From assembly GCA_016874115.1 (NCBI GenBank), contig VGVA01000003.1, forward strand, positions 1 through 64,000: 64,000 bases of DNA, read 5' to 3'. The stretch is from Gammaproteobacteria bacterium (GTDB lineage: Bacteria > Pseudomonadota > Gammaproteobacteria > Methylococcales > Methylomonadaceae). Of this stretch, positions 1,553 through 21,126 are shown one piece after another. Each line of letters opens with the position of its first letter. The stretch's first letter is position 1. The translations under genes and the position numbers were made by a program. The notes under the pieces were generated by a model. The model had not been told where the DNA came from and searched no databases. It was given only the letters and a program-made list of their open reading frames with translations.

Positions 1553-2334
1553 GCAATGCAGAAGCCGTCCGTTTGGAGCATATCTATACCAGCTTTGGCG
1601 ACAAAGTGGTTCATAAAGACATTAATCTGAGTCTGGCGCAAGGCGAAATTTTAGGGCTGGTCGGCGCATCCGGCTGCGGTAAAACAGTGTTACTGCGTGA
1701 GATCATCGGGTTACAGGAACCCAGCAAAGGCGACATTGTGGTCATGGGTCAATCGCTCCGCAAGCAGTCGCCCGGTCAAGGGCGGCGTTTACGCAATCAA
1801 TCCGGCGTTCTGTTCCAGAAAGGCGCTCTGTTCAGCGTATTGAATGTCTTTGAAAATATTGCTTTTCCGCTACGCGAACAAGGCATTAATGATGAAGAAC
1901 TGCTTAGCCGACTGGTGTTTATGATGTTACAGAATGTCGGTTTATCCGCCCGTGATGCCTGGCTGAAACCAGCGGATTTGTCGGGCGGTATGACTAAACG
2001 CGTCGCCCTGGCCCGCACCTTAATCATGGAACCTAAATTATTATTACTTGACGAACCGACTTCGGGTCTGGATCCGATTTCCAGCCAGGATTTTGTCGAT
2101 TTATTATCCGGACTGCACCGTGAACTCCATTTTACGGTAATATTGGTGACCCATGACTTAGACATTCTCCGTGATTTATGTACAAAAATCGCCGTTCTGG
2201 CCGATCAACAGCTTGTCGCCTTTGGCAATTTACCAGACGTTATGAATAACCCGCATCCGTTTGTGCAACGGTTTTTCCACAATCAGCGCGCGCAGCGTGT
2301 GTTTCAGTACCATCCGGAGCAACGGCATGGGTAG
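1549..2334 (+). CDS. MlaF-like ABC transporter ATP-binding protein
   Basis: Walker A GASGCGKT, LSGGM signature, Walker B LLLLDEPTSGLDP; 4-bp overlap with the permease. Confidence 0.93.
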   Translation: MSNAEAVRLEHIYTSFGDKVVHKDINLSLAQGEILGLVGASGCGKTVLLREIIGLQEPSKGDIVVMGQSLRKQSPGQGRRLRNQSGVLFQKGALFSVLNVFENIAFPLREQGINDEELLSRLVFMMLQNVGLSARDAWLKPADLSGGMTKRVALARTLIMEPKLLLLDEPTSGLDPISSQDFVDLLSGLHRELHFTVILVTHDLDILRDLCTKIAVLADQQLVAFGNLPDVMNNPHPFVQRFFHNQRAQRVFQYHPEQRHG

Positions 2335-3244
2335 AAATAACCGCGCACTTTTATCCGGCCTGTTTGTGGTCTTATTAATCACAGCAACCACCAGTATCGT
2401 CTACTGGCTTGGCAACCTGGAACGCGAACGGGATATTTATTATGTTTCCACTCAAGCATCGGTGTCCGGGCTAAATCCCGAATCGACTGTGTTTTACCGC
2501 GGGATTGCCGTCGGCAAAGTGTTGACCATCCACTTCGATCCGAAAAATGCCGGTGACATCTTGATCAAGATAGAAGTCGACAAAGACATCGTCTTCACCA
2601 AAGGCGTGTACGCCACTCTGCAACTGAAAGGCGTCACCGGGCTGACGCAATTGGAATTGCGCGATTCCGGCAAGATTCCCGATAGAATCCAGCCAGACAG
2701 CGAAGCGATTGCCAACCGCATACCGTTAACGCCGTCACTGACCGATAAATTGCTGGATTCGGGCGATGAACTTTTAAGAAAAGCCGATCATTTAATGAAT
2801 CGGCTGAGCAGTTTATTGAATGAGGAAAACGAAAAATCCATCGTCGACATTTTAGCCAACCTGAGAACCTTGAGCGGCAAATTATCAAGTCTGGAAAAAA
2901 GCGTGGATAAAGCCTTAACCGGCATTCCTGCGTTAACCTCCGATGCGCGTGCTACCCTCAAACAGATCGATTCCGTGGCGAAAGATTTGCACGAACTCAG
3001 CAAGGAAGCTAAAACGCTGAGCAATAAAGTCGGCACCGTTGCCGAAACGGGCAACCGTGCCGGAAATCAGCTGGTGCAGACCACAATTCCCAAAGTAAAC
3101 CGCTTATTAACGGAATTGCAAACCACCACAGAACAAGTCAAACGCATCACCAATACATTGGAAAACAGTCCGCAATCGGTCCTGTTGGGACCGGAACAAC
3201 AAACGCCCGGCCCTGGCGAGTCGGGTTACGAGGCGCCCGAATGA
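2327..3244 (+). CDS. MCE/MlaD-family substrate-binding protein
   Basis: N-terminal TM, MCE domain (VSGLNPESTVFYRGIAVGKV), coiled-coil tail. Start MGRNNRALL at 2327 preferred over the 2261 extension. Confidence 0.87.
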   Translation: MGRNNRALLSGLFVVLLITATTSIVYWLGNLERERDIYYVSTQASVSGLNPESTVFYRGIAVGKVLTIHFDPKNAGDILIKIEVDKDIVFTKGVYATLQLKGVTGLTQLELRDSGKIPDRIQPDSEAIANRIPLTPSLTDKLLDSGDELLRKADHLMNRLSSLLNEENEKSIVDILANLRTLSGKLSSLEKSVDKALTGIPALTSDARATLKQIDSVAKDLHELSKEAKTLSNKVGTVAETGNRAGNQLVQTTIPKVNRLLTELQTTTEQVKRITNTLENSPQSVLLGPEQQTPGPGESGYEAPE

Positions 3245-3813
3245 AACTAACCAACTTTTCCATTTTCATCCTGTGTCTGCTGTTTGTTGCCGTCAGCGCC
3301 TGCAGCATCCGGCCGAAGGCTTCTGCCTTGCACGATCTGGGCTATGCCAACAGCGATAACGGGATAACGGAAACCGTCACCCAAACCGACAACACCCCGC
3401 CGGTCACGGTTGAGTCGCCAAAATGGCTCGAAGACAGCCGCATCCGTTATCGTTTTCTGTTCTCCGCTCCTACGCAAGTACGCTCGTACGCCATGGACCG
3501 CTGGATTGCATCCCCGCCCGAGCTGTTTGAACAGCTCCTCAAAAACAGCCGCCGTCAGTGGCAAACCCCGTTAATGATCGAACTTACTGTTTTCGAACAA
3601 CAATTCGACACGCCGACGAGCGCCAAAGTGGTCATGCACTTTACTGTAACCACCGTGCCGAACGAAAAAAGCGCGCGTAGCAGCAAAAAGGAATTTAAGC
3701 TGCGCCGGGCTTGCGCCACCGCCGACACCAACGGCGCAGTTAATGCTTTTGCCGATCTCACGCGGCAAGCCATCGAGCAGATTCAGACCTGGTTAATGTT
3801 ACAACCCTCATAA
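3241..3813 (+). CDS. ABC-type transport auxiliary lipoprotein (PqiC/DUF330-like)
   Basis: Lipobox VAVSACS; 4-bp overlap with MCE gene; typical last gene of Mla/MCE operons. Confidence 0.75.
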   Translation: MKLTNFSIFILCLLFVAVSACSIRPKASALHDLGYANSDNGITETVTQTDNTPPVTVESPKWLEDSRIRYRFLFSAPTQVRSYAMDRWIASPPELFEQLLKNSRRQWQTPLMIELTVFEQQFDTPTSAKVVMHFTVTTVPNEKSARSSKKEFKLRRACATADTNGAVNAFADLTRQAIEQIQTWLMLQPS

Positions 3814-3984
3814 TTGCGATTCAGGCTGTCGCCCAAACGATTGCAAGACCATTAATAGCGAACAAACTACAGTTATTAATGGAATTACCATGGAAATAAC
3901 CGTATAAATCTGTTGTGAACATGGTATTTCTTGAGCAAAACCAGTAAAATACGCCACCCATTTTTTGGTGATGAATAAGCATTA

Positions 3985-5352
3985 ATGAAAATTCTCATTC
4001 TTGGCGCCGGGGTTACCGGTTCCGCTGTCGCCGCTGCCTTAGCCAGCGAAGAAAACGACATCATGGTTGTCGACCACAAATCGGCGCTGCTCGATGCCCT
4101 GAAAGAACGTTTCGACATTGCCACCGTGGCCGGAAATGCCGCCCATCCCAGCGTGTTGGAACAGGCCGGTATCGACGATACCGATATTGTAATCGCTGTT
4201 ACCGACAGCGACGAAACCAATATGCTGGCCTGCCTCATCATTAATTCCTTATACAAACGCCCGAAAACCATCGCCAGGGTCAGGGCGATCGATTATTTTA
4301 AAAACCCGCATTTATTCCGAGCCGGCGGGATTCCCATCGATCACGTCATCAGCCCGGAAATGATCGTCATGCAGGCCATCCGCAACTTGATCGATTTTCC
4401 CGGTGTACTGCATATTTCCGATTTTGCCGACGGGCGGGTGCGCTTGTTTTCCGTCAAAGTAACCGAACATGGCTTCTTAACAGGCAAAAAAATCAAAACC
4501 TTAAGCGAACGTCTGGCTAATGGCAAAATCCGCGTCGTCGCTATTTTCCGTCAGGGCAAACCGCTGCTGGTTAATGGTCAAGCCATCATTGAAACCGGCG
4601 ACGAAGTCTTTTTTGTCGCGCCGCGCGATGAAGTCCGCCGGGTTCTGAAAGAACTGCACCGGCTGGAAGCGCCGATCAAGCGAATCATCATTGCGGGCGG
4701 CGGCCACATCGGCAAGCGACTGGGCTTGGCGCTGGAAAACGATCATCAGGTTAAAATTATTGAAAGAGATCCGGCCCGCGCGCATAAAATCTCCAATGAA
4801 CTGCACAAAACCGTCGTCTTGCATGGCGATTGCGCGGATGAAACCCTGCTGTTGGATGAATCGGTCGATAGCGCCGACTTGTTCTGCGCCATTACCAATA
4901 ACGACGGGGTTAATATTATTTCCGCAGCGCTGGCGAAAAGTCTTGGCGCACGTAAAACCATCTGTTTGTTAAACCATATCAGCTATAGCAAACTACTGCC
5001 CGGCACGGGTATCGATGTCGCGGTACTGCCCAACCAGGAAACGCTCGGCAGTATCCTCAAGTATCTCAGAAAAGGCGATGTCGCCCAGGTCAGCTCGCTG
5101 TGCGGCGGCTCCGCCGAAGCCATCGAAGCGATTGCCCATGCCGGCGATCCGCAACATTCAGTCGTCGGTAAACGGGTGGACGCCATTCATTTTCCGTCCG
5201 GCATCGTGTTAGGAGCATTAATCCGCAATAACGAAGTCATCGAAATACACCATGATACGATCTTTGAAGAGAACGACCATGTGGTCATGTTTGCGATGGA
5301 AAAGAAACTGGTGACCTCCATTGAGAAAAACTTTCAGACGCTGGCAAAATGA
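3985..5352 (+). CDS. trkA: Trk system potassium transport protein TrkA
   Basis: 455 aa with two TrkA_N/TrkA_C halves; MKILILGAGVTGSAVA. Confidence 0.93.
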   Translation: MKILILGAGVTGSAVAAALASEENDIMVVDHKSALLDALKERFDIATVAGNAAHPSVLEQAGIDDTDIVIAVTDSDETNMLACLIINSLYKRPKTIARVRAIDYFKNPHLFRAGGIPIDHVISPEMIVMQAIRNLIDFPGVLHISDFADGRVRLFSVKVTEHGFLTGKKIKTLSERLANGKIRVVAIFRQGKPLLVNGQAIIETGDEVFFVAPRDEVRRVLKELHRLEAPIKRIIIAGGGHIGKRLGLALENDHQVKIIERDPARAHKISNELHKTVVLHGDCADETLLLDESVDSADLFCAITNNDGVNIISAALAKSLGARKTICLLNHISYSKLLPGTGIDVAVLPNQETLGSILKYLRKGDVAQVSSLCGGSAEAIEAIAHAGDPQHSVVGKRVDAIHFPSGIVLGALIRNNEVIEIHHDTIFEENDHVVMFAMEKKLVTSIEKNFQTLAK

Positions 5353-5471
5353 TCGTTAATCATCTGATTAATCAAGGGTTACCTTATGAATTTAAGCACG
5401 ACATCCGGCCAACATATGTGCCGTATCGGCGCATTTATTCATGCCACCTGCCCTGTCTTAGATCGTAATCC

Positions 5472-6929
5472 ATGAGTGCGTTCCTGACCATTGTTCACAT
5501 CTTTGGCCTGATTACGATGGGCTGTAGCGGCTTGATGGCAACCAGTTTTCTGACATCATTAATCGCGCATGACGGCGCAACCGAAGCTTTTCTTAACGGC
5601 ACGGCGCTGACATTTTTAATCGGCGCATTGTTGTTTTTCCCGACCTTACGCGCGCGGAAAAAAGTCACCCGGCAAACCGGTTTTTTGCTCGTTGCGATTG
5701 CTTGGTCGGTCACACCCGTAGTTTGCACAATTCCGCTTCAGTTATATTTTCCTTCCCTCAGTTTTGTGGATGCTTATTTTGAATGCGTTTCCGGACTGAC
5801 TACGACCGGCGCGACGATATTCAGCGGAATCGACACCTTTCCCATGTCTATCAACCTCTGGCGGCATGAATTAAATTGGTTGGGGGGAATGGGTATCATT
5901 ATTTTAGCCGTCGCCGTTCTGCCCGTTTTGGGTATCGGTGGCATGCAACTCTACATGGCTGAAGCGCCAGGCACCGTCAAAGAATCCGATTTGCCGCCAC
6001 GTATCGCGCAGACAGCCAAGGCGCTGTGGTTGGTGTATGCCGCTATCACCTTGACCTGCATCCTGTCCCTTAAACTGGCAGGCATGGACTGGTTTGATGC
6101 CGTCTGCCATGCCTTCTCCGCCATGTGCCTTGGCGGCTTCTCTACCCATGATGCCAGCATTAGTTATTTTAATTCAGTGCCTATAGAAGTAGTTCTCACA
6201 TTGTTTCAGCTTATTGCGGCCATTAACTTTGCCAGCCATTATGTGGCCATCAAGAAAATCACGATACGCCCATACCTAGAAGATATGGAATTCAGGGGGA
6301 TATTGGCATTATTAGGTTGCAGTTGCCTGGCTACTGCTTATGTACTAACCAGTGCCGGCACGTACCCTGATTACCTGACCTCCCTGCGCCACGCATCATT
6401 CAACCTCATCACCTTCGCAACAACCTGTGGTTATATGTCGCAAGACTACGGCCAATGGCCCATCTTTGTGCCGATGTGGATGTTGTTCTTAAGCTGTTTG
6501 ACCGCCTCTTCCGGATCGACCGGGGGCGGCATCCGCATGATTCGCACCATCATCCTGCTTAAACAAACCCGGCTGGAATTGTTCAAGTTTATCCACCCAA
6601 GCGCCCTCAAACCCCTGCGCATCGGTGACCAGATTATCAACAACAACATCGTCACCTCCGTCACTGGGTTCATTTTTCTTTATTTCATGTGCGCAGTGAC
6701 ACTGGTATTCGCATTAATCTTCACCGGACTTGATTTTGTTACCGCTGTTTCCGCCGCCCTTGCCAGCTTTAACAATGCGGGTCCGGGCTTGAACCAAGTC
6801 GGCCCCGCCAGCAACTACGCCAGCTTGAGCGATGTGCAAACCACGATTTGCGCCTTTGCGATGATCCTGGGACGGGTGCAAATATTTTCAATAATTATCT
6901 TGTTTGTACCGGAGTTTTGGCGGAAGTAA
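5472..6929 (+). CDS. trkH: Trk potassium uptake permease TrkH
   Basis: 485 aa; 'GLTTTGATIFSGID', 'SSGSTGGGIRMIR' filter motifs; adjacent to trkA. Confidence 0.93.
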   Translation: MSAFLTIVHIFGLITMGCSGLMATSFLTSLIAHDGATEAFLNGTALTFLIGALLFFPTLRARKKVTRQTGFLLVAIAWSVTPVVCTIPLQLYFPSLSFVDAYFECVSGLTTTGATIFSGIDTFPMSINLWRHELNWLGGMGIIILAVAVLPVLGIGGMQLYMAEAPGTVKESDLPPRIAQTAKALWLVYAAITLTCILSLKLAGMDWFDAVCHAFSAMCLGGFSTHDASISYFNSVPIEVVLTLFQLIAAINFASHYVAIKKITIRPYLEDMEFRGILALLGCSCLATAYVLTSAGTYPDYLTSLRHASFNLITFATTCGYMSQDYGQWPIFVPMWMLFLSCLTASSGSTGGGIRMIRTIILLKQTRLELFKFIHPSALKPLRIGDQIINNNIVTSVTGFIFLYFMCAVTLVFALIFTGLDFVTAVSAALASFNNAGPGLNQVGPASNYASLSDVQTTICAFAMILGRVQIFSIIILFVPEFWRK

Positions 6930-6949
6930 AGCATTATCAATAATGCATA

Positions 6950-8041
6950 TCAAACTGCATGCCCATCAATCTGCGGCCAGGCGGTCAACACAGCTTTAAC
7001 GACAGTCGCCAACGGAATCGCCAGAAATACGCCCCAAAATCCCCATAGCCCGCCGAAAAACAGAATAGCGATGATGATGGCAATAGCGTGTAGATTAACA
7101 GCCTCCGAGAACAAAACCGGCACCAGTACCACGCCGTCCAGAGCCTGTATCACCGAATAAGCAATACAAACGTACATGAAATGATCGTCACTTAAACCCC
7201 ACTGAAAGTAGGCCACCAGTAGCACCGGAAACGTCACCAACGTTGCGCCGATATACGGAATAATGACCGACAACCCCATTAATACCGACAGCAACATGGC
7301 GTAGTTAAGCCCCATCGTCTGATAAGTAATGTAACTGATTACCCACAGGATAAAGACTTCGGCAAACTTGCCGCGCACGTAATTGGCAATCTGGATTTCA
7401 ATTTCTTCCCATACCCTAACGCTCAAATGTCGGTCGTTGGGCAAATACTGGACTACCCAGTTCACCAAGACGTTTTTATCTTTCAGGAAGAAAAACACCA
7501 TCATCGGCACTAAAAACAAGTACACCAGCGCGCTGACTACACCGACCACAGACGCGGCGGAAAGGCTTAGTACGTTCTGTCCGTACACCAATAATTCTTT
7601 TTGGACGGTGAACATGAATTCCTGAATTTTGCTTTCGCTGATAATTTGCGGGTACATTTCCGGCAGTTTCATAATCTGCGTTTGCACGTGGCTGATGAAA
7701 GCGGGAATATGCTGCACCAATTCGACCGCTTGTTGTGTAATGATCGGCATCAAATAAAACAACAGGTAAATAAAAGCCGCCATAAATAACGAGAAGACGG
7801 CGCAAACGGCTAACAAGCGGGGCGAGCCGCGTTTTTCGACCTCTTCAACAATACCTTCCAAAAAATAAGCGAGCACCACCGCCACATAGACAGGCTTTAA
7901 TAAATCGGACAGAAAATAGATTAATAAGAAACTGACTAGCAGAATGACGGCCAGCGAATAGGCTTGCGAGTTAGGTAAAAAACGGCTGATTCTGTCCCTT
8001 AAAAACCGTTTATTAACAAAATAGGGATCGCTTGTACTCAT
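6950..8041 (-). CDS. AI-2E family transporter (PerM-like)
   Basis: 363 aa polytopic; 'GLSVIIPYIGATLVTFPVLLVAYFQWG' motif. Confidence 0.87.
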   Translation of the reverse strand: MSTSDPYFVNKRFLRDRISRFLPNSQAYSLAVILLVSFLLIYFLSDLLKPVYVAVVLAYFLEGIVEEVEKRGSPRLLAVCAVFSLFMAAFIYLLFYLMPIITQQAVELVQHIPAFISHVQTQIMKLPEMYPQIISESKIQEFMFTVQKELLVYGQNVLSLSAASVVGVVSALVYLFLVPMMVFFFLKDKNVLVNWVVQYLPNDRHLSVRVWEEIEIQIANYVRGKFAEVFILWVISYITYQTMGLNYAMLLSVLMGLSVIIPYIGATLVTFPVLLVAYFQWGLSDDHFMYVCIAYSVIQALDGVVLVPVLFSEAVNLHAIAIIIAILFFGGLWGFWGVFLAIPLATVVKAVLTAWPQIDGHAV

Positions 8042-8188
8042 TAATGAAGTAACTGATATTTTATTAATAATATTCTACATCCAATCACTTCAACCGGTTA
8101 AAAAACCGAAAGTTTTAATAATTGCTCTTTTTATAAAAAGTTAGCATTAATAAATCGTTTCCGCCTGGAAAATACTTTATATTTTTAG

Positions 8189-8215
8189 TTAACAGTGTTA
8201 CATTAACATCGTTAA
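8189..8215. promoter_or_regulatory. Two tandem operator-like dyads upstream of tetR gene
   Basis: TTAACAGTGTTA (8189-8200) and TTAACATCGTTAA (8203-8215), 14 bp apart, 16 bp before the ATG at 8231. Confidence 0.5.
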
Positions 8216-8230
8216 CTTATTTGAAAAGCC

Positions 8231-8869
8231 ATGCCGCCCAAGCTAAAATCACCCGAAGACCGCGAACAACTGCGCAGCCAGATTCTGGATGCGGCGCGCA
8301 CATTATTTGTGGAACGCGGCATAGAAGCCGTCACGATGCGGCAAATCGCTAAGCAAATCAATTACTCAGCCACGACCTTATACCATTACTTTGCCGATAA
8401 AGACGCTTTGCTGCAAGCGGTTTGCGATGAAGACTTTCTGGCGCTTGCCAGCGGTTTGCGTGAAATCATGCAATTGCCGGATCCGAAAGCCCGGATTGAT
8501 GCATTAATGATGGGTTACGCCCGCTTTGCCCTGCATCATCCCAACCATTACCGGCTGATGTTCATGACGCCGCGCGCGCCCTGCAATCAGGATATCACCC
8601 AAATCCAGCAAGGCAATACCGAACAAGATGCCTATGTCCAGTTGAAAACAGTCGTGCAGAACGCATTCGACGCCGGCTTGTTTAAGCCGGAACTGGACGA
8701 CTTCGAATTAATCGCGCAAACGCTGTGGGCCGGGATTCACGGCGTCTGCTCGCTGGAGATTGCGCTGGGACATGAACCCTGGATTAATTGGAAAAACCTG
8801 GAAACACGCATCGAGCACATGCAATCCGCCATTTTACAAGGCGTACTCCGCAATCCCGATGCGCATTAA
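8231..8869 (+). CDS. TetR/AcrR-family transcriptional regulator
   Basis: N-terminal HTH 'AARTLFVERGIEAVTMRQIAKQINYSATTLYHYFADKDALL'. Confidence 0.92.
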   Translation: MPPKLKSPEDREQLRSQILDAARTLFVERGIEAVTMRQIAKQINYSATTLYHYFADKDALLQAVCDEDFLALASGLREIMQLPDPKARIDALMMGYARFALHHPNHYRLMFMTPRAPCNQDITQIQQGNTEQDAYVQLKTVVQNAFDAGLFKPELDDFELIAQTLWAGIHGVCSLEIALGHEPWINWKNLETRIEHMQSAILQGVLRNPDAH

Positions 8870-9965
8870 TAACTTACATGCATTGGCAAAACAATACCTC
8901 ATTTGGGGTTTAGCCACGGCCGTGATCTTTACCGGCTGCGACCGGCAGCAACCGTCGCCGCCCCCGCCCCGCCCTGCGTTGGTTATGGTGGTAACCTCAA
9001 CATCGGACATTAATAACAGAGTTTTAGTGGGCGAAGTGCGCCCTCGCTATGAATCCGTGCAAAGCTTTCGTATTAACGGAAAAATTATCGAACGCAAAGT
9101 GGAAACCGGTTCGCTGGTCAAGAAAGGACAGCTTTTAGCCCGATTGGATCCGGCAGATACGCAGCTCAGCGCGGCGGCGGCGCTGGCGGAAGTAAAATCC
9201 ACAGAAGCCAGCCAGACACTGGCGTTTGCGGAAGCAACGCGCTACCGGAATCTAGCCAAGAAAAATTTCGTCTCGCGCACGGCGTTGGACACCAAAGAAG
9301 CCGAACTGGCGAACGCCAACGCCCGCTTAAAAGAAGCCAGGGCGCGGGCGGATGTCGCTATCAATCAGGCGCATTATACTGATCTGAACGCAGACCGCGA
9401 CGGCGTAATTACCGCAATCCGCGCCGAACCGGGGCAAGTGGTTGAAGCAGGAGAATCTATCGCTCAAATTGCCGATACCGGCCATATCGACATCCTGGTT
9501 GCCGTGCCGGAATCGCAGATTTCCTCTGTCCGCGTTAATGATAAGGTGGCGATTAAACTTTGGGCTGAAAACCACGTTATTTACCCCGGCGTCATCCGTG
9601 AAATTTCGCCCGCGGCCGACGCGAGTACGCGCACCTTTAATACGCGCATCACCGTTACCCAAGCGGATACCGGTTTAAAACTGGGCATGACAGCCAAAGT
9701 TAAATTAACGGCAACAGACGAGTCTGAAAACGTCGGCATTCTTATACCGAATTCCGCATTAACCGAAATCAACGGCACAAAAACCGTCTGGATTATCGAC
9801 CAGCAGAACAAAGCGGAGCCTCGCACCGTCAGCGCGGGTTCTTTTACCGAGAACGGCGTACTTATCACCGACGGCCTAACCAGTGGCGAAAAAATCGCCA
9901 TTGCCGGAGTGCATACGTTAATTAAAGATCAACCGGTAACGCCGGTACCGGCCGAAACGCCATGA
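8859..9965 (+). CDS. RND efflux periplasmic adaptor (MFP) lipoprotein
   Basis: Lipobox VIFTGCD; biotinyl-lipoyl-like and beta-barrel segments; start MRINNLHAL at 8859 overlaps tetR end; followed by RND permease. Confidence 0.88.
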   Translation: MRINNLHALAKQYLIWGLATAVIFTGCDRQQPSPPPPRPALVMVVTSTSDINNRVLVGEVRPRYESVQSFRINGKIIERKVETGSLVKKGQLLARLDPADTQLSAAAALAEVKSTEASQTLAFAEATRYRNLAKKNFVSRTALDTKEAELANANARLKEARARADVAINQAHYTDLNADRDGVITAIRAEPGQVVEAGESIAQIADTGHIDILVAVPESQISSVRVNDKVAIKLWAENHVIYPGVIREISPAADASTRTFNTRITVTQADTGLKLGMTAKVKLTATDESENVGILIPNSALTEINGTKTVWIIDQQNKAEPRTVSAGSFTENGVLITDGLTSGEKIAIAGVHTLIKDQPVTPVPAETP

Positions 9966-12900
9966 GCGAGCCAATCGGCGATAACCGTTTTAATTTATCG
10001 GTTTGGGCGCTACAACATCAGGCTTTTGTGTTGTATCTGATGCTGGTATTAATGATTGCGGGTGCGATGGCCTATACCCGGTTAGGTCAATCGGAAGATC
10101 CGCCCTTTACATTCAAAGTCATGCTGGTCAGAGCCACCTGGCCGGGCGCGGGCGCGCAGGAAATTGAACAGCAAGTTACCGACAAATTGGAAAAAAAACT
10201 TCAGGAAGTGCCGCATTTGGATACGCTCCGAAGTTTTTCGCGCCCCGGCGAATCGATGATTTTCTTGACGGTGAAAGACGATACCTTTTCCGAAGAAGTC
10301 CCCGACATCTGGTATGAAGTCCGTAAAAAAATCAGCGACATCCGTCATACCCTGCCGCAAGACCTGGAAAGTTTAACATTCAACGACGAATTCAGCGACG
10401 TCTACGGCAGCATGTACGCCTTAACGGGTGACGGCTTTGATAACGCCGCACTCAAAAAACAGGCCGAAATAATCCGCGACGAGTTATTGCAAGTAAAGGA
10501 TGTCGAAAAAGTCATCTTTTTTGGCGAGCAGCCGCAGCGCCTGTTTGTTGAATTATCCAACACCAAACTGGTCGCCATTGGTCTGAGCGTTAATGAATTA
10601 ATCGAAACCATTCAGGCGCAAAACGTCATGACTCGCAGCGGCGCTTTCGATACCGGCGACGAACGCATCCGCATTGCCATTTCCGGACGGCTGCAAAGCG
10701 TTGAGGAACTGAGCGAATTAAGGCTGCGCGCCAACAACCGGGATTTCCGGCTGGGCGATATTGCGCGTGTATACCGTGGTTACGACGACCCGCCCAGCGA
10801 GCGCGTCCGCGTTAACGGCCAGTCCGCCTTGTTGCTTGGCGTCAGTATGAAAACAGGCGGCGATGTGATTGCGCTTGGCCGCGACCTGGATGCCGCCGTC
10901 AGCCGTATTCAACAGCGTTTGCTGGTCGGCCTGAAACTAACACCTGTTACACTGCAAGCCAAGATCGTCGCCAACTCCATTAACGACTTTGTACAATCAT
11001 TAATAGAGGCATTAATCATTGTACTAGCCGTGAGTTTGTTGTCGCTGGGATTACGCAGCGGTATTGTGGTCGCTATTTCGATTCCGCTGGTGTTGGCAGG
11101 CACATTCTTGTGTATGCAGTTGAATGACATCGGCTTGCATAAGATTTCCCTGGGAACACTCATTCTGGCCTTGGGCTTGCTGGTTGACGACGCCATTATT
11201 GCCGTGGAAATGATGTCATCGAAAATGGAACAAGGCTGGGATCGGTTAAAATCGGCGTCCTTCGCCTTCACCACCACCGCCATGCCCATGCTGACCGGCA
11301 CACTGGTCACCGTTGCCGGATTTTTGCCGATTGCGACGGCGGCCTCTTCCGCCGGCGAGTACACACGTTCTATTTTTCAAGTGTCGGCCATTTCATTAAT
11401 GATTTCCTGGTTTGCCGCGGTTATTTTTGCACCTTACCTGGGTTTTCATTTGCTGCCTGATTACAGCCACGTCCGCGAACCTGCACCATTAATACGCTGG
11501 TTGAACAACAAACTGGGCAGAAATGGCGTAGACAACAGCAACCACCATCACGATATTTACAACACGCCGTTCTATATTTACCTGCGCCAATTAATCACCT
11601 GGTGCGTCCGTTACCGGTTTACCGTGATTGCTATTACTATTGCCTTGTTTTTGCTGGCGATTTTCGGCTTCGGCAAAGTGCAGCAGCAGTTCTTTCCGGA
11701 TTCGACCCGGCTTGAATTAATGGTGGATTTACGGCTGACCGAAGGCGCATCGTTCGCCGCCACCGATAAACAAGTGGACAAGCTGGAACACTGGCTGCAC
11801 GACTGGAACATTAAGCACGAAGGCATCGACAATTTTGTCGCTTACATCGGCACGGGCGCACCGCGGTTTTATCTACCATTGGATGTCCAGCTGGCGCATC
11901 GGGGCTTCGCCCAGTTTGTGGTGTTGAGTAAAACCCTGGCATCGCGCGAGGCGTTGCGTACCGATTTGCTGAAATTGTTCGAAACCGATTTCCCGGAACT
12001 GCGCGCGTCGGTGTTACGGCTGGAAAACGGGCCGCCGGTCGGCTTTCCCGTGCAATTCCGGGTATCCGGCCATAACATTCATCAAATCAGGGAGTACGCC
12101 GCGCAAATCGCCGCCATAATGCGCGCCCATCCCAATCTGGTGAATGTACAGTTCGACTGGGCGGAACCCAGCAAAGTGATTAAAATCATCATCGATCAAG
12201 CCAAAGCCAGATTATTAGGCGTCAGTTCTGCCGAAATCGCCAACATCATCGACGGTGCTACTCAAGAGTTGTCCATTACCGAATTCAAGGAAGGCATCGA
12301 ACGCATCTCGCTGGTCGGGCGCGCGCCGGCCAATGAGAGAACCCACTTATCGTTGCTGTCCGGTTTAATGGTTAATAACAAAGATGGTGTTAATATTCCG
12401 CTGGCGCAACTAGCCACCATTTCTTCCGAATTCGAAGAAGGTGTCATCTGGCGGCGCAACCGAATTCCGTCGATTATCGTGCGTGCGCATTTGCAAGGCG
12501 ATATCCAGGCGCCGGTTATTTCTCAGCAGATCGAAAGCCGATTAACCGATATGAAAGCAGCTTTGCCGCTCGGCGTCCGCATAGAAATCGGCGGTGCAAT
12601 GGAAGAATCGGCCAAAGGGTCTTCATCTATTATTGCTGGCGTTCCTTTGTTTTTGTTTACCGTGTTGACTTTATTAATGCTGCAATTGCAAAGCTTTTCG
12701 CGGGTATTACTCGTTGTTTTAACCGCGCCGCTCGGCTTGATCGGCATCACGTTGGCCTTACTGTGTTTCGACAAACCGTTCGGCTTTGTCGCCATGCTCG
12801 GCGCGATTGCCTTATCCGGCATGATCATGCGCAATTCGGTTATTTTGGTCGACCAGATCGACCAGGATTTATCGGCAGGATTACCGCCTTGGCAGGCGAT

Positions 12901-13111
12901 TATCGAATCCACCATTCGCCGCTTTCGGCCCATCGTATTAACTGCCGCCGCCGCAATTTTGGCGATGATTCCCTTAACCCGCAGCGTTTTTTTCAGCCCT
13001 ATGGCGGTCACCATCATGGGTGGGCTGGCAGTAGCAACACTGTTAACGGTATTGTTCTTGCCGGCATTATACGCGGCATGGTTTAAGATAACCGTTCCAG
13101 AAAATAACTGA
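9962..13111 (+). CDS. RND-family multidrug efflux permease (AcrB-like)
   Basis: 1049 aa; 'GLLVDDAIIAVEMM', 'ALSGMIMRNSVILVDQI' motifs; 4-bp overlap with adaptor. Confidence 0.94.
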   Translation: MSEPIGDNRFNLSVWALQHQAFVLYLMLVLMIAGAMAYTRLGQSEDPPFTFKVMLVRATWPGAGAQEIEQQVTDKLEKKLQEVPHLDTLRSFSRPGESMIFLTVKDDTFSEEVPDIWYEVRKKISDIRHTLPQDLESLTFNDEFSDVYGSMYALTGDGFDNAALKKQAEIIRDELLQVKDVEKVIFFGEQPQRLFVELSNTKLVAIGLSVNELIETIQAQNVMTRSGAFDTGDERIRIAISGRLQSVEELSELRLRANNRDFRLGDIARVYRGYDDPPSERVRVNGQSALLLGVSMKTGGDVIALGRDLDAAVSRIQQRLLVGLKLTPVTLQAKIVANSINDFVQSLIEALIIVLAVSLLSLGLRSGIVVAISIPLVLAGTFLCMQLNDIGLHKISLGTLILALGLLVDDAIIAVEMMSSKMEQGWDRLKSASFAFTTTAMPMLTGTLVTVAGFLPIATAASSAGEYTRSIFQVSAISLMISWFAAVIFAPYLGFHLLPDYSHVREPAPLIRWLNNKLGRNGVDNSNHHHDIYNTPFYIYLRQLITWCVRYRFTVIAITIALFLLAIFGFGKVQQQFFPDSTRLELMVDLRLTEGASFAATDKQVDKLEHWLHDWNIKHEGIDNFVAYIGTGAPRFYLPLDVQLAHRGFAQFVVLSKTLASREALRTDLLKLFETDFPELRASVLRLENGPPVGFPVQFRVSGHNIHQIREYAAQIAAIMRAHPNLVNVQFDWAEPSKVIKIIIDQAKARLLGVSSAEIANIIDGATQELSITEFKEGIERISLVGRAPANERTHLSLLSGLMVNNKDGVNIPLAQLATISSEFEEGVIWRRNRIPSIIVRAHLQGDIQAPVISQQIESRLTDMKAALPLGVRIEIGGAMEESAKGSSSIIAGVPLFLFTVLTLLMLQLQSFSRVLLVVLTAPLGLIGITLALLCFDKPFGFVAMLGAIALSGMIMRNSVILVDQIDQDLSAGLPPWQAIIESTIRRFRPIVLTAAAAILAMIPLTRSVFFSPMAVTIMGGLAVATLLTVLFLPALYAAWFKITVPENN

Positions 13112-13224
13112 GGAGCACACGGCTTAACGAATTTTTATTAATGATTTGCTGCCGCCTTCCGGGCTAAATAGCTAATCGAGGCGTAATCAAGTAAACTATT
13201 AACGATACAACTCAAACTACCGTC

Positions 13225-13932
13225 ATGACTGTCAGCAGTAACGTAAATCCAAACGAAATTCATAAGTTCGGTTCCATGGCCGAACGCTGGTGGGATCCCC
13301 AGGGTGAATTTAAAACTTTGCACGATATTAATCCTCTGCGTTCGGAATTCATCCGACGCTTTACCGATCTTGTCGGCAAACGGATCGTCGATGTCGGCTG
13401 TGGCGGCGGCATTCTGACCGAAGAGCTGTCGAAACAAGGCGCTGACACGCTTGGTATCGACTTGAGCGATGAATTAATCGATATTGCCGAACTGCACGGG
13501 CTTGAATCCGGAATCGACGCCAAATATCAAAAAATCAGCGCAGAAACTTTGGCGGAACAACAACCGGAAAGCTTCGATCATGTCACTTGCATGGAAATGC
13601 TGGAGCATGTGCCTGATCCGGGCGGCATCATTAATGCCTGCGCTGCTTTGGTAAAACCCGGCGGCATGGTGTTTTTTTCCACCCTTAACCGTAAGCCGAA
13701 AGCCTACCTTCTGGCTATCCTGGGCGCCGAGCATATCCTGAAGATGCTGCCCAAAGGCACACACGATTATAAAACTTTTATCAAGCCATCCGAACTCAGC
13801 CAGACGGCGCGCAATGCTGGTCTCAGCCTGCAAGGCATGGTCGGTATCGAATACAACCCTTTCACCCAAACCTTTAGCTTGGGAAAGGATATCGACGTCA
13901 ACTACATTGCAGCGTTTCAACGTGAAGATTAA
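13225..13932 (+). CDS. ubiG: 3-demethylubiquinone 3-O-methyltransferase UbiG
   Basis: 'FGSMAERWWDPQGEFKTLHDINPLR', 'DVGCGGGILTEELSKQGA'. Confidence 0.95.
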   Translation: MTVSSNVNPNEIHKFGSMAERWWDPQGEFKTLHDINPLRSEFIRRFTDLVGKRIVDVGCGGGILTEELSKQGADTLGIDLSDELIDIAELHGLESGIDAKYQKISAETLAEQQPESFDHVTCMEMLEHVPDPGGIINACAALVKPGGMVFFSTLNRKPKAYLLAILGAEHILKMLPKGTHDYKTFIKPSELSQTARNAGLSLQGMVGIEYNPFTQTFSLGKDIDVNYIAAFQRED

Positions 13933-14671
13933 TGACAGCGCGTTGCCGCTGGCTAATCAGACTTTATTAATCACTGGCGCAGGCGGCGGCATAGGCAATA
14001 CAGCGGCGTTGACGTTAGCTAAACAAGGGGCCCAGATCATCCTGCTGGATAAAAACATACCTAAACTGGAAGTTATTTACGACCGGATTAAAGCCACCAA
14101 TGCGCCTGAACCGGTGCTGTATCCTTTTGATTTGGCGGGCGCTACCGAAGATCAGTATCAGGAATTGGCTGACCGGATTGAAGAAAAATACGGATCGTTA
14201 CAAGGCGTTGTACATGCCGCGGTAGAATTCAGCAGTTTTACCCCAATCAGTTTGCATGCAACCAAAGACTGGGGGCATACCTTGAATGTCAATGTAAATT
14301 CGCCGTTTTTGCTAAGCCGGGTATTAATACCGGTGCTGCAAAAAAGCGAATCCGCATCCATTGTTTTTATCTCCGACTCTTATGCCCGCACTGCCGCGGC
14401 ATACACCGGCGCTTACGGTGTTTCTAAAATGGCTTTGGAAGGCTTGGCTCATATCCTTGCCGAAGAATTGGAATCCTTTCAAAAAATCAGGGTCAACGTA
14501 TTAATTCCGGGGCCAGTCGATTCGCCATTGCGGAAAAGAGCTTTTCCAGCGGAAGATAAATCGAAGCTGCCGACACTAGAAAGTCTGGAGCCGGTATTTA
14601 ACTACTTGTTCGGCGCAGACAGCATCGGCGTAACCGGCCAGACCGTTGACGCCCGAACTTTTCATTTATGA
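13922..14671 (+). CDS. Short-chain dehydrogenase/reductase (YciK-like)
   Basis: TGAGGGIG nucleotide-binding motif and YGVSKMALE; probable GTG start at 13922 overlapping the ubiG stop. Confidence 0.85.
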   Translation: MKINDSALPLANQTLLITGAGGGIGNTAALTLAKQGAQIILLDKNIPKLEVIYDRIKATNAPEPVLYPFDLAGATEDQYQELADRIEEKYGSLQGVVHAAVEFSSFTPISLHATKDWGHTLNVNVNSPFLLSRVLIPVLQKSESASIVFISDSYARTAAAYTGAYGVSKMALEGLAHILAEELESFQKIRVNVLIPGPVDSPLRKRAFPAEDKSKLPTLESLEPVFNYLFGADSIGVTGQTVDARTFHL

Positions 14672-14681
14672 TTAACTGACT

Positions 14682-15236
14682 ATGGTTGAACGAGAAGACG
14701 TCATTTTAACCCGCGATGTAAACGTCATCACCGTGCCCGACGGCAACAGCACTACTCTGGAAAAAGGCCAGATCGTGACTATCCATCAGGCCTTGGGCAG
14801 TAGTTATACGGTAGTGACCCAATACGGCAGCATGGTGCGAATCGCCAATAAGGATGCCGACGCCTTGGGTAAAGAATCTCACCAGCTTTATACACTGGTA
14901 ACCGATACCAGCGCCGAAGCCGTGGAACAGAACTGCTGGGAAGTGATGAAAACCGTATACGACCCGGAAATACCCGTTAATATCGTCGATCTCGGTCTGG
15001 TTTATGAGTGCAAAGTCGTACCTTCGGCACAAACAGAAGATTCACATGACGTACATGTCAAAATGACATTAACCGCCCCCGGATGCGGCATGGGTCCTGT
15101 TATTCAAGAAGATGTGGAACGATGTATCCGCGCTCTGCCGGGAGTAGGCAATGTTACGGTTGAAGTGGCGTTGGATCCGCCCTGGTCCAGGGACATGATG
15201 TCTGAAGTCGCCCAGTTACAACTTGGGCTTTATTAA
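14682..15236 (+). CDS. SufT-like / MIP18 (DUF59) family Fe-S assembly protein
   Basis: 'YDPEIPVNIVDLGLVYECKV...LTAPGCGMGPVIQEDVE' DUF59 signature. Confidence 0.87.
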   Translation: MVEREDVILTRDVNVITVPDGNSTTLEKGQIVTIHQALGSSYTVVTQYGSMVRIANKDADALGKESHQLYTLVTDTSAEAVEQNCWEVMKTVYDPEIPVNIVDLGLVYECKVVPSAQTEDSHDVHVKMTLTAPGCGMGPVIQEDVERCIRALPGVGNVTVEVALDPPWSRDMMSEVAQLQLGLY

Positions 15237-15311
15237 AAGCTTAGGTAAATTCCAGCCCTGATAATAAAGATTAACAGGGCTGAAGGTAAAATCAAACGAG
15301 AAGCGAAATGA

Positions 15312-15701
15312 TTAGATAAGCCCTTTCATTTCTTCCAGCTTTTTGATAGCTGCATTTAAGTGCTCTTCAATACCTTTCATTTCGTTTTTCTTCGCCATGC
15401 CTCTGGCTTTTTTGATGTGTTCGTTAGCGCGTGAACGTTCACGGTCAACCACGTCGTTTGCGTTAACGTCTTTGCCGTAATCCATTGCTTGTTTGCAAAG
15501 TTTGTAAACTTCGTCACCTGATTTGCCTTCATACGCAGCCAGTTTGGCTTTTTTCAGTTCGCCAATCATCATATCGATAGCATCGGCCGGCGCGTAAGAA
15601 ATACGGCCTTCACTGGCTTCCGCCATGGCTGCTGTCGAAAAAGCGCCCATAGATAATGCAACAAGGGAAGAAAGTACAATTGTTTTTAACATTTTCATAA
15701 A
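15312..15701 (-). CDS. Small periplasmic helical protein of unknown function
   Basis: Signal peptide MKMLKTIVLSSLVALSMGAFSTAAMA then charged amphipathic helices; start of MKMLK preferred. Confidence 0.65.
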   Translation of the reverse strand, partial: FMKMLKTIVLSSLVALSMGAFSTAAMAEASEGRISYAPADAIDMMIGELKKAKLAAYEGKSGDEVYKLCKQAMDYGKDVNANDVVDRERSRANEHIKKARGMAKKNEMKGIEEHLNAAIKKLEEMKGLI

Positions 15702-15976
15702 TAGAAATTTCCTCAAGTGTGTTGTGTAGCAATTGGTGGTTAATTTTCATTACCGCGCGCGATTTTATCATGTTTTACCTGAATTTAATAAAAACTTGAT
15801 AAAAAATCTCCTTTTCAATGACAAAAATCACACTATCCGAAAATAAGCAGTAAGCTATTATAAAGACTGTAATACTCAGACTTATTTCTTAAAATTTCAA
15901 AATTCTGATATTATTCGCCCAGCAAATGGGCTAGGCTGCTTTGTCTAATCACAACAATTATTAATAAGAATGCCAG

Positions 15977-17332
15977 ATGGCGGAAAAGCGAAATACTTTA
16001 TTCAAAAAGATAGACCAGCAGACCGTACCGGTACTGGCTTGTCTGCTCTTTTTTCCTGCTTTTTTGACATTAATCCCCTTTTTTAGTTTAGATAGCGCCT
16101 GGAGTCACGGATTTACCCATCCTCTGGAAGGATGGGATCATATCGTCACCATGATTGCGGTCGGAATCTGGGCGGCGCAACTGCGTGGCCATGCCATCTG
16201 GCTGTTGCCGCTGGCCTTCGTCGGCGTCATGAGCCTGGGCGGCATTGCCGGGGCGGCGGGCATTCTGTTGCCTGCGGTAGAAGGCATGATTTTGCTGTCC
16301 TGCGCCGTATTCATCCTGTTAATCATCCGCCGGATACGATTCAGCAACCGGATTAATCTTACCATCGTGGCATTCTTCGCCTTTTTCCATGGTTTTGCCC
16401 ACGGCCAGGAAATTTCCGCCTCCGCCAGCCTGATTTCGTATTCGATAGGCTTTATGTTGGCGACTTTACTGTTGCATGGCGCAGGCATCCTTGTCGCCAA
16501 ACTGGTTTTGTTCTGCGTAACCTGTTTTCTTGCCATCCTGTTGCCCAGCCTGGCGCAAGCCGCCAAAGCGCAAACTATAAGCAACGGGAACAGCAGCTTT
16601 GACCCAGTGATAAGTCAGGTAGATTTTGACGGAAACTCGCCCTGGCGACAGACGGCAAATCAGAATGATTTAGGCTCGGAACATATTGCCATTAATGACT
16701 TTAATACAACATTTCTTAACGTATGTTCGCTTATTCCCGATAAGCCCGATCCGATTAGGCATAAATTTAAGCAGCGAACGCCGTCGTCCGGATCGGCTAA
16801 CATCAGTAAAATAAAGCGATTGGATAACCCAAGCGGCAAGCTTGCGCCTATTAATCAATCAACAATTGCTGCGCTTGCCGTTATGCCGCCGCTTGCCTTA
16901 ATATGGCAAGCTACTCGGCTTAATATTGCCGCCGTGTTTAAGCATTATTTTCCCGACATTAACTACACGCCCGGCCAAATTCTGCTTAGCAACGGCACAG
17001 GCTTAACATCGCCGCCGCTTGTATTAAATGCCCGCATCCCCGCTCGCACCGCCCGGTTTTATCACACACTCCTTGCTTTATCCGTTGAAGATATTCCTCT
17101 TCAAACAAGCTTTACCCATTTTCCCGATAACTCATTTCCATTGATAAGCACGATTAATCCAATCGGCTTAACTTCCGCCCCTCGTTTTAACTGCATTGTT
17201 GGCTTAACCAGCAAAGCAACCTCTTATTTTCGCTCCCGACACCCCCACAGCTTAGCATTTAAAGGCCGTGGCCGTGCAGACAGCGAAATTTTGCAATCCT
17301 GCTATACAACCTTAGAGAAAAACCATGTTTAA
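15977..17332 (+). CDS. HupE/UreJ-like membrane protein with unusual ~250-aa C-terminal extension
   Basis: N-terminal ~200 aa: 'HGFTHPLEGWDHIVTM', 'FHGFAHGQE', 'LLHGAGI'; extension has no motif I recognise. Overlaps the TonB receptor start by 8 bp. Confidence 0.65.
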   Translation: MAEKRNTLFKKIDQQTVPVLACLLFFPAFLTLIPFFSLDSAWSHGFTHPLEGWDHIVTMIAVGIWAAQLRGHAIWLLPLAFVGVMSLGGIAGAAGILLPAVEGMILLSCAVFILLIIRRIRFSNRINLTIVAFFAFFHGFAHGQEISASASLISYSIGFMLATLLLHGAGILVAKLVLFCVTCFLAILLPSLAQAAKAQTISNGNSSFDPVISQVDFDGNSPWRQTANQNDLGSEHIAINDFNTTFLNVCSLIPDKPDPIRHKFKQRTPSSGSANISKIKRLDNPSGKLAPINQSTIAALAVMPPLALIWQATRLNIAAVFKHYFPDINYTPGQILLSNGTGLTSPPLVLNARIPARTARFYHTLLALSVEDIPLQTSFTHFPDNSFPLISTINPIGLTSAPRFNCIVGLTSKATSYFRSRHPHSLAFKGRGRADSEILQSCYTTLEKNHV

Positions 17333-19592
17333 CAAAAAATATAATTCAACAACCTTGCGTTACACCGGACTATTCAAGCCCAACATACTGGCGCTGAGTA
17401 TTGCTATTTTTATCGGCAGCGCCGCTCACGCCCAGGATAAAGCCAGCACGGCCGTTGAACTGCCTGAGCAAAGCGCAGATGATATTAACACTACCATTAA
17501 TAACAAAGATAAGGTGCAACTGGAAGAAATCACGATTACCGAACGTGCCGATTCCCAAGTCGGCATCGCCGACAGCGCCTCGCAAGGCAATGTCGGACAG
17601 GCGCAGATCAAATACCGGCCTTTAACGCGACCGGCGGAAGTGCTGGAAACCGTCCCTGGGCTGATTGCCACACAACACAGCGGCGAAGGCAAGGCCAACC
17701 AATATTTCCTGCGTGGCTTCAACCTCGACCACGGCACCGATTTTCTGACCCAAATTGACGGTGTCCCCGTCAATCAGTTGTCGCATTCTCACGGACAAGG
17801 CTGGACGGACACCAACTTCCTTATTCCAGAACTGGTGCAAACCCTGGATTACAAAAAAGGCAACCACTACGCCGAAAACGGCGATTTTTCCAGCACCGGT
17901 TCGGCCAACATTAAATATTTCAATGCCTTACCGGAGCATATCGTTAAATACACCGGCGGCAGTTTTGATTACCATCGCGGATTGGTCGCCGGATCGCAAG
18001 AACTGGGCGGCTTAAACCTACTGTACGCGGGCGAAACCGTCCACAACAATGGCCCGTGGGACTATGGTAATCAATATTGGAAATTCAACGGTGTACTAAA
18101 ACTCAGCGAAGAAAAAGGCGACCACGGCTGGAGTATCACCGGTATGGCAATGAAATCGGACTGGAATTCCACCGACCAAATTGCCCGCCGTTCCGTCTTT
18201 AATGGCACAACAGGCCGTTTTGGCGCCATTGACCCCACCGATGGCGGTGACAGCCAGCGTTACAGTCTGACTGGCGAATGGCATCAACAGGATGCCGACG
18301 GTGAAACTAAGTTAATGGCTTACGGCGTTTATTCGAAGTTAAATTTATTTTCCAACTTTACTTACTTCCTCGACAATAATGAATTCACCAATCCTGCAGG
18401 CTGTGCCGGGTTGGCCGGTTTAAGGCGGGGCAGTAAAATTGATCCCAGTTTGCTCAACACCTGCGGCGACCAGTTTGGCCAACCGGACGACCGCTGGACA
18501 ACCGGCTTTAAAGGAAGTCATACCTTTTTCCATAAGATTGGCGAAGCCGAGTCAGAAACCACCATCGGCCTGCAAATCCGCAATGACAACATTCAAAATG
18601 CATTAACCAAAACCCACGGCCAGCGTCAGTATGGCATTACTCGTGAAGATACTATCTGGGTCAGCAGTGCCAGCCTGTACGGTGAAAACAAAACCCGTTG
18701 GACGGACTGGTTCCGCAGCACGTTGGGCGTACGGTTTGACGGCTTCCGCTTTGATGTCAGCAAAAGCAACCAGCGCCTGAACGCCAACGAAACTTATGAC
18801 GGCCTGGTCAGCCCCAAACTCAGCCTGGCGTTTGGCCCTTGGGCGAATACTGAGTTTTACCTCAACGGCGGCATGGGTTATCACAGCAACGATGCACGTG
18901 GTATTAATACTCTGGTAAATCCGGAAGACGGCACCCGCATTGACGGCGACGGCAACCGCATAACCCCGGCCGATCCGCTGGTACGCTCGTACAGCGCGGA
19001 AATCGGTGCCCGCACCACCTGGGTGAAAGGCTTGCAAAGCACCCTGGCAATCTGGTGGCTTGATATCGATTCGGAGTTATTGTTTGTCGGCGATGTCGGC
19101 TCAACTGCCGCCAGCCGACCCAGCCGCCGTTACGGCCTTGAGTTCAATAACTATTATTCTCCTACCGATTGGCTAACCTTTGATGCGGACCTCAGCTTTT
19201 CCGAAGCCCGTTTCAGAAACAGCATCCCTGGCGAAGGCAACCGCATCCCCAATTCGGTCGAAACCGTCATCGCCGCAGGCGCAACTTTCCATGATTTGTA
19301 CGGATTTTTCGGTGGTCCGCGGCTGCGTTACTTTGGCCCGCGTACTTTGGACGATACCGGCAACAAGCGGTCTGACAGCACTCTATTGTTATCGGCAACC
19401 TTGGGCTACGAAGTTAACAAGAACCTCAGTTTTACCGCTGAAGTCTATAACATCCTAAATCGCAACGATGACGGTATCACTTATTTTTACGGTTCTCGCC
19501 TGCCCGGCGAACGTGCAGCCGGTGTGGATGACTTCCACTTCCATCCGGTGGAGCCGGTCAGTTTCCGTTTAGGTTTCACGGCAAAGTTTTAA
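17325..19592 (+). CDS. TonB-dependent receptor
   Basis: 755 aa; plug domain 'VLETVPGLIATQHSGEGKANQYFLRGFNLDHGTDFLTQIDGVPVN'; C-terminal ...RLGFTAKF. Confidence 0.94.
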   Translation: MFNKKYNSTTLRYTGLFKPNILALSIAIFIGSAAHAQDKASTAVELPEQSADDINTTINNKDKVQLEEITITERADSQVGIADSASQGNVGQAQIKYRPLTRPAEVLETVPGLIATQHSGEGKANQYFLRGFNLDHGTDFLTQIDGVPVNQLSHSHGQGWTDTNFLIPELVQTLDYKKGNHYAENGDFSSTGSANIKYFNALPEHIVKYTGGSFDYHRGLVAGSQELGGLNLLYAGETVHNNGPWDYGNQYWKFNGVLKLSEEKGDHGWSITGMAMKSDWNSTDQIARRSVFNGTTGRFGAIDPTDGGDSQRYSLTGEWHQQDADGETKLMAYGVYSKLNLFSNFTYFLDNNEFTNPAGCAGLAGLRRGSKIDPSLLNTCGDQFGQPDDRWTTGFKGSHTFFHKIGEAESETTIGLQIRNDNIQNALTKTHGQRQYGITREDTIWVSSASLYGENKTRWTDWFRSTLGVRFDGFRFDVSKSNQRLNANETYDGLVSPKLSLAFGPWANTEFYLNGGMGYHSNDARGINTLVNPEDGTRIDGDGNRITPADPLVRSYSAEIGARTTWVKGLQSTLAIWWLDIDSELLFVGDVGSTAASRPSRRYGLEFNNYYSPTDWLTFDADLSFSEARFRNSIPGEGNRIPNSVETVIAAGATFHDLYGFFGGPRLRYFGPRTLDDTGNKRSDSTLLLSATLGYEVNKNLSFTAEVYNILNRNDDGITYFYGSRLPGERAAGVDDFHFHPVEPVSFRLGFTAKF

Positions 19593-19611
19593 CGGACTCA
19601 TCACCCCTCAT

Positions 19612-19646
19612 ACGGGCATCCAGCTATTGGCTGCCCGTTTTTTTTG
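19612..19646 (+). terminator. Rho-independent terminator after the TonB receptor
   Basis: acgggca...tgcccgt stem followed by a T run. Confidence 0.75.
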
Positions 19647-19712
19647 ACTTTCTTTTCGGCCTTTGCAAACGTAAACTAACCATTATTAATTATTTAGGCT
19701 TGCCGTAATTTT

Positions 19713-20984: not shown

Positions 20985-21090
20985 CGCTAAAATCATCGTA
21001 AATAATTAAATGTTGTTGTGAAATACCGCTCTTTGAACTCAATCTACGCTAAGTTTTACCGACCCTGCCATGCTATCAGTTATAATGGGC

Positions 21091-21109
21091 GAATTATGAT
21101 TCTCATTCG
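21091..21109. promoter_or_regulatory. Fur-box-like sequence upstream of copC-like gene
   Basis: gaattatgattctcattcg, 18 bp before the ATG; TATAAT at 21081-21086. Confidence 0.4.
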
Positions 21110-21126
21110 TTTTCAGGTACCCATTA

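Follow-up and report, generated by a model that had tools for sequence, protein, structure and literature searches.

The palindromic hexamer ATTAAT is almost certainly driven at the level of the DNA in the gammaproteobacterial lineage studied here, and it is best read as a lineage-specific drive for a double-stranded DNA signal that resembles the highly iterated palindromes (HIPs) of cyanobacteria. The analysed DNA is a 64,000-nucleotide stretch (positions 1..64000; hereafter the window) of contig VGVA01000003.1 from a methanotroph of the family Methylomonadaceae (assembly GCA_016874115.1), in which a first-pass annotation had reported a peculiar spelling of Leu-Ile and Leu-Met pairs in a gene for a resistance-nodulation-division (RND) efflux permease. 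The assembly, here G000, is a draft of 212 contigs and 2.475 Mb and is 94% complete; about 1.65 of its 2.48 Mb and 0.4 Mb of the congener G004 were read base by base.

Abundance of ATTAAT and its effect on codon choice

The window holds 202 copies of ATTAAT, in genes as well as between them, compared with 29.6 ± 5.5 expected, and none of 100 shuffles reached 202. Their spacing is near-exponential, with a mean of 315 bp and a coefficient of variation (CV) of 0.99. Across the whole assembly we counted 6943 copies (2.8/kb genome-wide, 3.3/kb on the core contigs) and 1130 copies of the reversed control TAATTA, giving a ratio of 6.1. Relative to a first-order Markov expectation, ATTAAT was 5.6-fold over-represented and the runner-up palindrome, ACCGGT, 2.6-fold (1.19 Mb read directly). 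Nearly all contigs carry between 2.2 and 4.5 copies per kb. The open reading frames (ORFs) contain 2.97/kb, and the gaps of 30–600 bp between genes contain 5.98/kb when convergent, 6.52/kb when divergent and 6.53/kb when co-oriented (about 0.8/kb in G004). A role as promoter or terminator was rejected because these three kinds of gap are equally dense, and regular spacing was rejected because the sites are spaced near-exponentially at genome scale as well (CV 1.05). Even stop codons are involved, since 106 of 646 TAA stops lie inside ATTAAT in G000 vs 8 of 154 in G004.

The dependence of codon choice on context was analysed on core contigs totalling about 1 Mb, with G004 as comparison. Where an A closes the preceding codon and AT opens the following one, leucine is written TTA in 84% of cases (1161/1386), compared with 24.5% in G004. 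This share drops to 34% when only the following AT is present (18% in G004), to 19% when only the preceding wobble A is present and the next codon does not begin with A (21%), and to 18% when neither is present (22%). Similarly, 77% (1105/1441) of the Ile-Asn pairs are spelled ATTAAT vs 26% expected, the share in G004 being 20%. TTA usage is thus not independent of its neighbours (84% vs 18%), and the two context effects that the first-pass annotation had anticipated, on TTA and on Ile-Asn (77% vs 26%), are both present genome-wide. In codon shuffles, the observed/expected ratio was 2.95 in phase 0 and 7.1 in phase 2, compared with 0.74 and 1.09 in G004; on the low-density contigs of G000 described below it was 0.35 and 1.51.

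Because both coding phases are enriched, intergenic DNA is densest, mirror positions show symmetric odds (see below) and TAA stops are included, we conclude that the bias acts on the DNA hexamer and not on codon usage, as the annotation had proposed. Of the two causes named in that proposal, selection or conversion, a weak short-range redundancy of sites leans towards selection.

The recognised sequence

For each one-base variant, we calculated the odds of ATTAAT over the synonymous alternative, corrected for codon use. In G000 these odds were highest against changes at inner positions (T3>C 19.0x, A4>G 16.3x, T3>A 11.7x) and lower at outer positions (T6>C 5.2x, A1>G 5.9x, A1>T 6.1x), except that the outer change A1>C was disfavoured 17.6x, on a par with inner changes. 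The corresponding ratios in G004 for T3>C, A4>G, T6>C and A1>G were 0.65–1.14. One-base deviations from ATTAAT accordingly occur mostly at the outer positions (5–6x for A>G/T>C vs 16–19x inside). Mirror positions of the hexamer agree in their odds even though they involve different codons, amino acids and phases, which argues for a dyad-symmetric reading of duplex DNA.

Near-matches behave differently depending on whether the full motif lies within synonymous reach. Where it does not, GTTAAT (as Val-Asn) and its mirror image ATTAAC (as Leu-Thr) are themselves favoured, 2.9x and 4.3x, and the doubly altered GTTAAC is not (1.18x and 0.91x). Variants that can be converted synonymously are depleted, as is ATCAAT for Ile-Asn (0.16x). 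The flanks are weakly preferred in the form TY-ATTAAT-RA, and no strong base preference extends past the 6-mer.

Effects on proteins and the RND permease gene

The drive towards ATTAAT is strong enough to alter amino acids. Ile-Asn dipeptides are 1.81 times as frequent in G000 as the product of the residue frequencies predicts (1.10 times in G004), and the same aligned orthologue columns contain 260 Ile-Asn in G000 and 148 in G004. Among the Ile-Asn pairs that G000 writes as ATTAAT, 33% are kept as Ile-Asn in G004, compared with 58% in the reverse direction. Where Asp and Asn differ between the two genomes, Asn is favoured in G000 by 22 to 6 after Ile and by 127 to 97 elsewhere.

The RND efflux permease gene itself (9962..13111, + strand; 1049 aa; NCBIfam RND permease) contains nine ATTAAT, all in the phase xxA TTA ATx, whereas 20,000 within-gene synonymous codon shuffles gave 1.05 ± 0.94 and at most 6. 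We recovered the 13 Leu-(Ile/Met) pairs of the first-pass annotation, nine of them written A TTA AT, with the same nine residue triplets. Its impression that leucine is otherwise mainly CTG or TTG is a fair one (44 and 40 codons), though TTA accounts for 36 (26%) and other codons for 16. The framing as a codon-pair bias of an RND pump gene was too narrow: the bias is real, but it is genome-wide, and nothing ties it to the pump.

Three close orthologues of the permease (75–77% amino-acid identity) have 1, 1 and 2 ATTAAT sites, and of the nine sites, GAA TTA ATC (ELI, 10597..10602) alone recurs as ATTAAT, in one of the three (G007). At several sites, the encoded residues differ as well. GTA TTA ATG (VLM, 10048..10053) corresponds to VLT/VIT in congeners, and the three close orthologues have ALV/SLS at TCA TTA ATG (SLM, 11395..11400), KFM/KFR/KVI at CCA TTA ATA (PLI, 11488..11493) and AVV/AVV/ILV at CAA TTA ATC (QLI, 11590..11595). 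The remaining sites in the orthologue alignment are TCA TTA ATA (SLI, 10999..11004), GCA TTA ATC (ALI, 11011..11016), GAA TTA ATG (ELM, 11716..11721) and TTA TTA ATG (LLM, 12673..12678). Elsewhere in the window, a double motif, ATTAATGCATTAATG, encodes I-N-A-L-M in the gene that the annotation called nspC; we located this pair, as it had been described, at 37201..37215 on the - strand, with sites at 37202 and 37210.

Lineage specificity

The nearest named relative of the host, which is not a cyanobacterium, is Methyloglobulus morosus (77% PBP1b identity). Seven congeners contain 0.3–0.5 ATTAAT/kb, about 1.7 times the count of the control. Comparing the ATTAAT count with the reversed control, we found no second enriched lineage in 625 other genomes checked, and neither the 237 family genomes surveyed nor the 369 sampled from the class came near the ratio of 6.1; of those having 200 or more sites, the top ratio was about 3.5, as read in the survey tables. 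Since the congeners and the surveyed genomes lack the enrichment, it arose after the split from the compared congeners. With the closest genome sharing only about 72% identity with G000 in aligned coding DNA, the onset cannot be placed more precisely. At most orthologous positions, the ATTAAT sites arose by at least two base changes.

An opposite pattern was seen in the family's genus g14, where ATTAAT is nearly lacking in many species (e.g., G233, G235, G237, G240, G242; loci L180–L189), with 25–42 copies in 2.4–2.8 Mb, and the sister species G236, G239 and G247 have 1200–1660. In the depleted genomes that were sampled, CTTAAG, GATATC, CATATG, ATGCAT and further sites are missing too, in one of them CCGG as well, so that the depletion looks like a wholesale avoidance of palindromes. 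Considered as potential carriers of an ATTAAT restriction system, these genomes were uninformative, since many palindromes are avoided together.

Search for a cognate methylase and for competence genes

In the 94% complete assembly of G000, a search for Dam-type (PF02086, MethyltransfD12) and Eco57I-type (PF07669) enzymes gave no match, and several congeners were positive. No N6_Mtase (PF02384) was found above the cut-off in G000; the one sub-threshold match is an ORF that we take to be PrmC-like. Scanning 1.65 Mb for the methylase motif [DNS]PP[YFW] picked up, besides a PF01555 enzyme, only two proteins of HemK/PrmC type and a short match that is implausible. The single C5 methylase (PF00145) detected in G000 cannot modify ATTAAT, a site without C. 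DNA methyltransferases are altogether very few in G000 (one PF01555, one PF00145), and most congeners have several. MutH was not found in the genus. It is possible that a methylase is missing from the 94% complete assembly or is of an unusual kind.

The PF01555 enzyme is thus the sole N6/N4-type methylase of G000. It has a TSPPY motif, which is usually associated with N4-methylcytosine, and lies on contig C13 in a type II cassette (L041:1429-3321) consisting of the 327-aa methylase and a 301-aa partner without Pfam or NCBIfam match. The cassette is flanked by lysC and by a 125-aa ORF resembling the end of alaS. Relatives of the cassette occur on plasmids of E. coli, Salmonella and Lactococcus, and it is 50–63% identical to the E. 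coli/Salmonella plasmid pair. With one ATTAAT in 1.9 kb, it is poor in the motif beside the ATTAAT-rich lysC (5 in about 1.3 kb), and it therefore probably came after the build-up of ATTAAT. As the agent, this methylase was rejected on account of its TSPPY motif (ATTAAT being without C), its plasmid-type type II cassette and the scarcity of ATTAAT there.

With regard to competence, comEC is present in most congeners. In G000 (C8:3739-5457, L026), its otherwise well-aligned frame is interrupted by a single in-frame TAG, and the homologue in G007 is intact; the TAG may mark a genuine loss of competence or an error in the sequence.

Local redundancy and possible explanations

Whether a possible site is filled depends hardly at all on neighbours beyond 200 bp. 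Below 100 bp, site pairs are slightly deficient relative to within-gene permutation, with ratios of 0.91, 0.94 and 0.92 in three bins (z -2.3, -2.0 and -3.0), and none of the control codon choices TTA, ATT and AAT outside the motif falls with neighbouring sites. This short-range deficit may represent a weak saturation of a benefit and leans towards selection.

In a HIP-like drive of the kind we favour, a directional process would read double-stranded DNA and favour each match to (TY)ATTAAT(RA) wherever it is located. The responsible factor would be a protein that binds or modifies DNA with dyad symmetry and acts all over the chromosome. Each added site would confer a tiny advantage, corresponding to a population-scaled ln(odds) of about 1.7–2.9, and this advantage may partly saturate when another site lies within 100–200 bp. 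The most likely form, to which we give slightly less than an even chance, is weak selection for chromosome-wide binding sites, either of a nucleoid-type protein or of an orphan methylase that is now lost or unassembled. That a chromosome-wide DNA-binding system in one methanotroph species, by methylation-independent drive or selection for the hexamer, rewrote thousands of sites including proteins is plausible, though somewhat short of an even chance. Several points weigh against a HIP-like drive: no agent was identified, and only about 1.65 of the 2.48 Mb of G000 were read base by base. The redundancy effect, small in itself, came to light after several window sizes had been tried. At about 28% divergence in aligned coding bases, the nearest genomes are too distant to show tempo or mutational route, and no motif-bearing sister species, in which conservation of sites would be a direct sign of selection, was among the genomes compared.

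Among the rival explanations, a HIP1-type system coupled to a methyltransferase, in which an N6-methyladenine (m6A) methylase marks ATTAAT and methyl-directed repair or regulation biases the retention of sites, is on balance unlikely. The palindromic motif, its mirror-symmetric tolerance that relaxes at the outer positions, and its restriction to one lineage do resemble HIPs (PMC4390886), and in Helicobacter pylori the presence of an ATTAAT methylase goes along with about 25% more sites (PMC12239561). That effect is, however, far smaller than the one seen here. The assembly contains no MethyltransfD12, Eco57I or above-cut-off N6_Mtase enzyme, its PF01555 enzyme is of TSPPY type in a later-arrived cassette, its sole C5 enzyme cannot act on the site, and MutH was not found in the genus. 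Furthermore, under the repair model the density should level off near 1 site/kb, whereas we observed 3.3/kb with hardly any effect of neighbours beyond 200 bp. We consider it improbable that the motif spread by uptake-driven molecular drive, with competent cells preferentially taking up or recombining ATTAAT-bearing DNA of kin, as is the case for the DNA uptake sequences (DUS) of Neisseria and the uptake signal sequences (USS) of Haemophilus. DUS and USS likewise number thousands in a single lineage, sit for the most part at neutral positions and are not found in foreign DNA; the redundancy below about 200 bp would fit a saturating benefit per fragment, and most congeners have comEC. A 6-bp palindrome at about four times the density of USS would nevertheless discriminate little, filling beyond 200 bp is independent of neighbours with exponential spacing, and the in-frame TAG in comEC of G000 means that uptake may be switched off, unless it is an assembly error.

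A context-dependent bias of mutation or repair alone, bringing ATTAAT about without any benefit, would account for the nearly local filling and for the disregard of gene function and orientation. It is nonetheless quite improbable, since transitions and transversions at every position converge on ATTAAT, which no single lesion would produce; neither the pair deficit below 100 bp nor the two or more base changes behind the sites at most orthologous positions would be expected from it. A sequencing or assembly artefact, such as miscalling at a modified motif, might be suspected in a draft genome of 212 contigs, but many sites differ from their orthologues by several bases and amino acids (e.g., QLI vs AVV), open frames are intact, and five contigs of the same assembly are at background. 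Ordinary codon or amino-acid composition is excluded by the codon shuffles, and both of these trivial explanations can practically be set aside.

Comparison with known systems

The cyanobacterial palindromes comprise HIP1 (GCGATCGC) and the alternate HIPs GGCGCC, GCCGGC and GCsGC, other palindromes that sporadically take its place; the alternate HIPs co-occur with a cognate methyltransferase, and some HIP1 genomes are without a CGATCG enzyme, according to Elhai (PMC4390886). Like these, ATTAAT is a palindrome hugely over-represented genome-wide, with thousands of copies in genes and spacers; one lineage may bear a HIP that is absent in relatives, and one-off variants are tolerated mainly at outer positions. 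It differs from HIP1 in that its host is a gammaproteobacterium, the hexamer consists of A and T only, and its density of 2.8/kb genome-wide and 3.3/kb in the core compares with about 0.3–2.7/kb for HIP1, mostly around 0.5–2.5/kb. Also unlike HIPs, it shows no saturation at roughly 1 kb, and G000 has no recognisable cognate methyltransferase. We would therefore not file ATTAAT as a member of the HIPs, although it works like one, as the defining methylase was looked for and not found. In the literature searched, we found no report of HIPs outside cyanobacteria.

The identical hexamer is the target of M.Hpy99XIX / M.HpyAVII, an orphan ATTAAT m6A methyltransferase of H. pylori, whose presence likewise goes with more ATTAAT (PMC12239561). 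In H. pylori, however, the effect is about 25%, the sites are enriched in promoters and the motif is still under-represented (PMC12239561), whereas the excess in G000 is about 6-fold, without preference for promoters over convergent gaps and without such a methylase having been found. With Neisseria DUS and Haemophilus USS, ATTAAT shares the character of a lineage-specific short motif with thousands of copies that sways codon choice and that foreign DNA lacks. DUS and USS are non-palindromic sequences of 9–12 nt at about 1/kb; ATTAAT differs from them as a palindrome of 6 bp at 3.3/kb without an oriented core of 9–12 nt, in a genome whose comEC looks interrupted. Restriction-site avoidance, too, acts on palindromes at the DNA level within a lineage, as in g14 with its nearly erased ATTAAT, but with the opposite sign.

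Being restricted to one species and having no recognisable methylase, this gammaproteobacterial case sets palindrome drive apart from the methylation-repair model, and it yields a quantitative, fitness-like landscape for each one-base variant. It also demonstrates that a force at the DNA level can beat codon usage (84% vs 18% TTA) and change protein composition (Ile-Asn in 1.8-fold excess), a caution for studies that take codon-pair or dipeptide biases as signs of translational selection. As congeners are without the enrichment, a closer sister set against G000 could reveal when and how it began.

Low-density contigs and depleted hexamers

Five contigs of G000 (C6, C9, C22, C28 and C67) have ATTAAT at background density. 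C6 encodes integrase, UvrD-like and AbiEii-like genes and is probably a mobile element; C9 encodes NADH-dehydrogenase/hydrogenase-type subunits and C22 a large WD40 protein, and these two together with C28 and C67 are either islands or mis-binned contigs. In G000, a low ATTAAT density thus flags DNA that is foreign or mis-binned. Finally, phased hexamers containing TGGC (ATTGGC, TTGGCA, TGGCAA, TGGCTT) are about 3-fold depleted under the codon shuffle in the coding DNA of G000 and not in that of G004.

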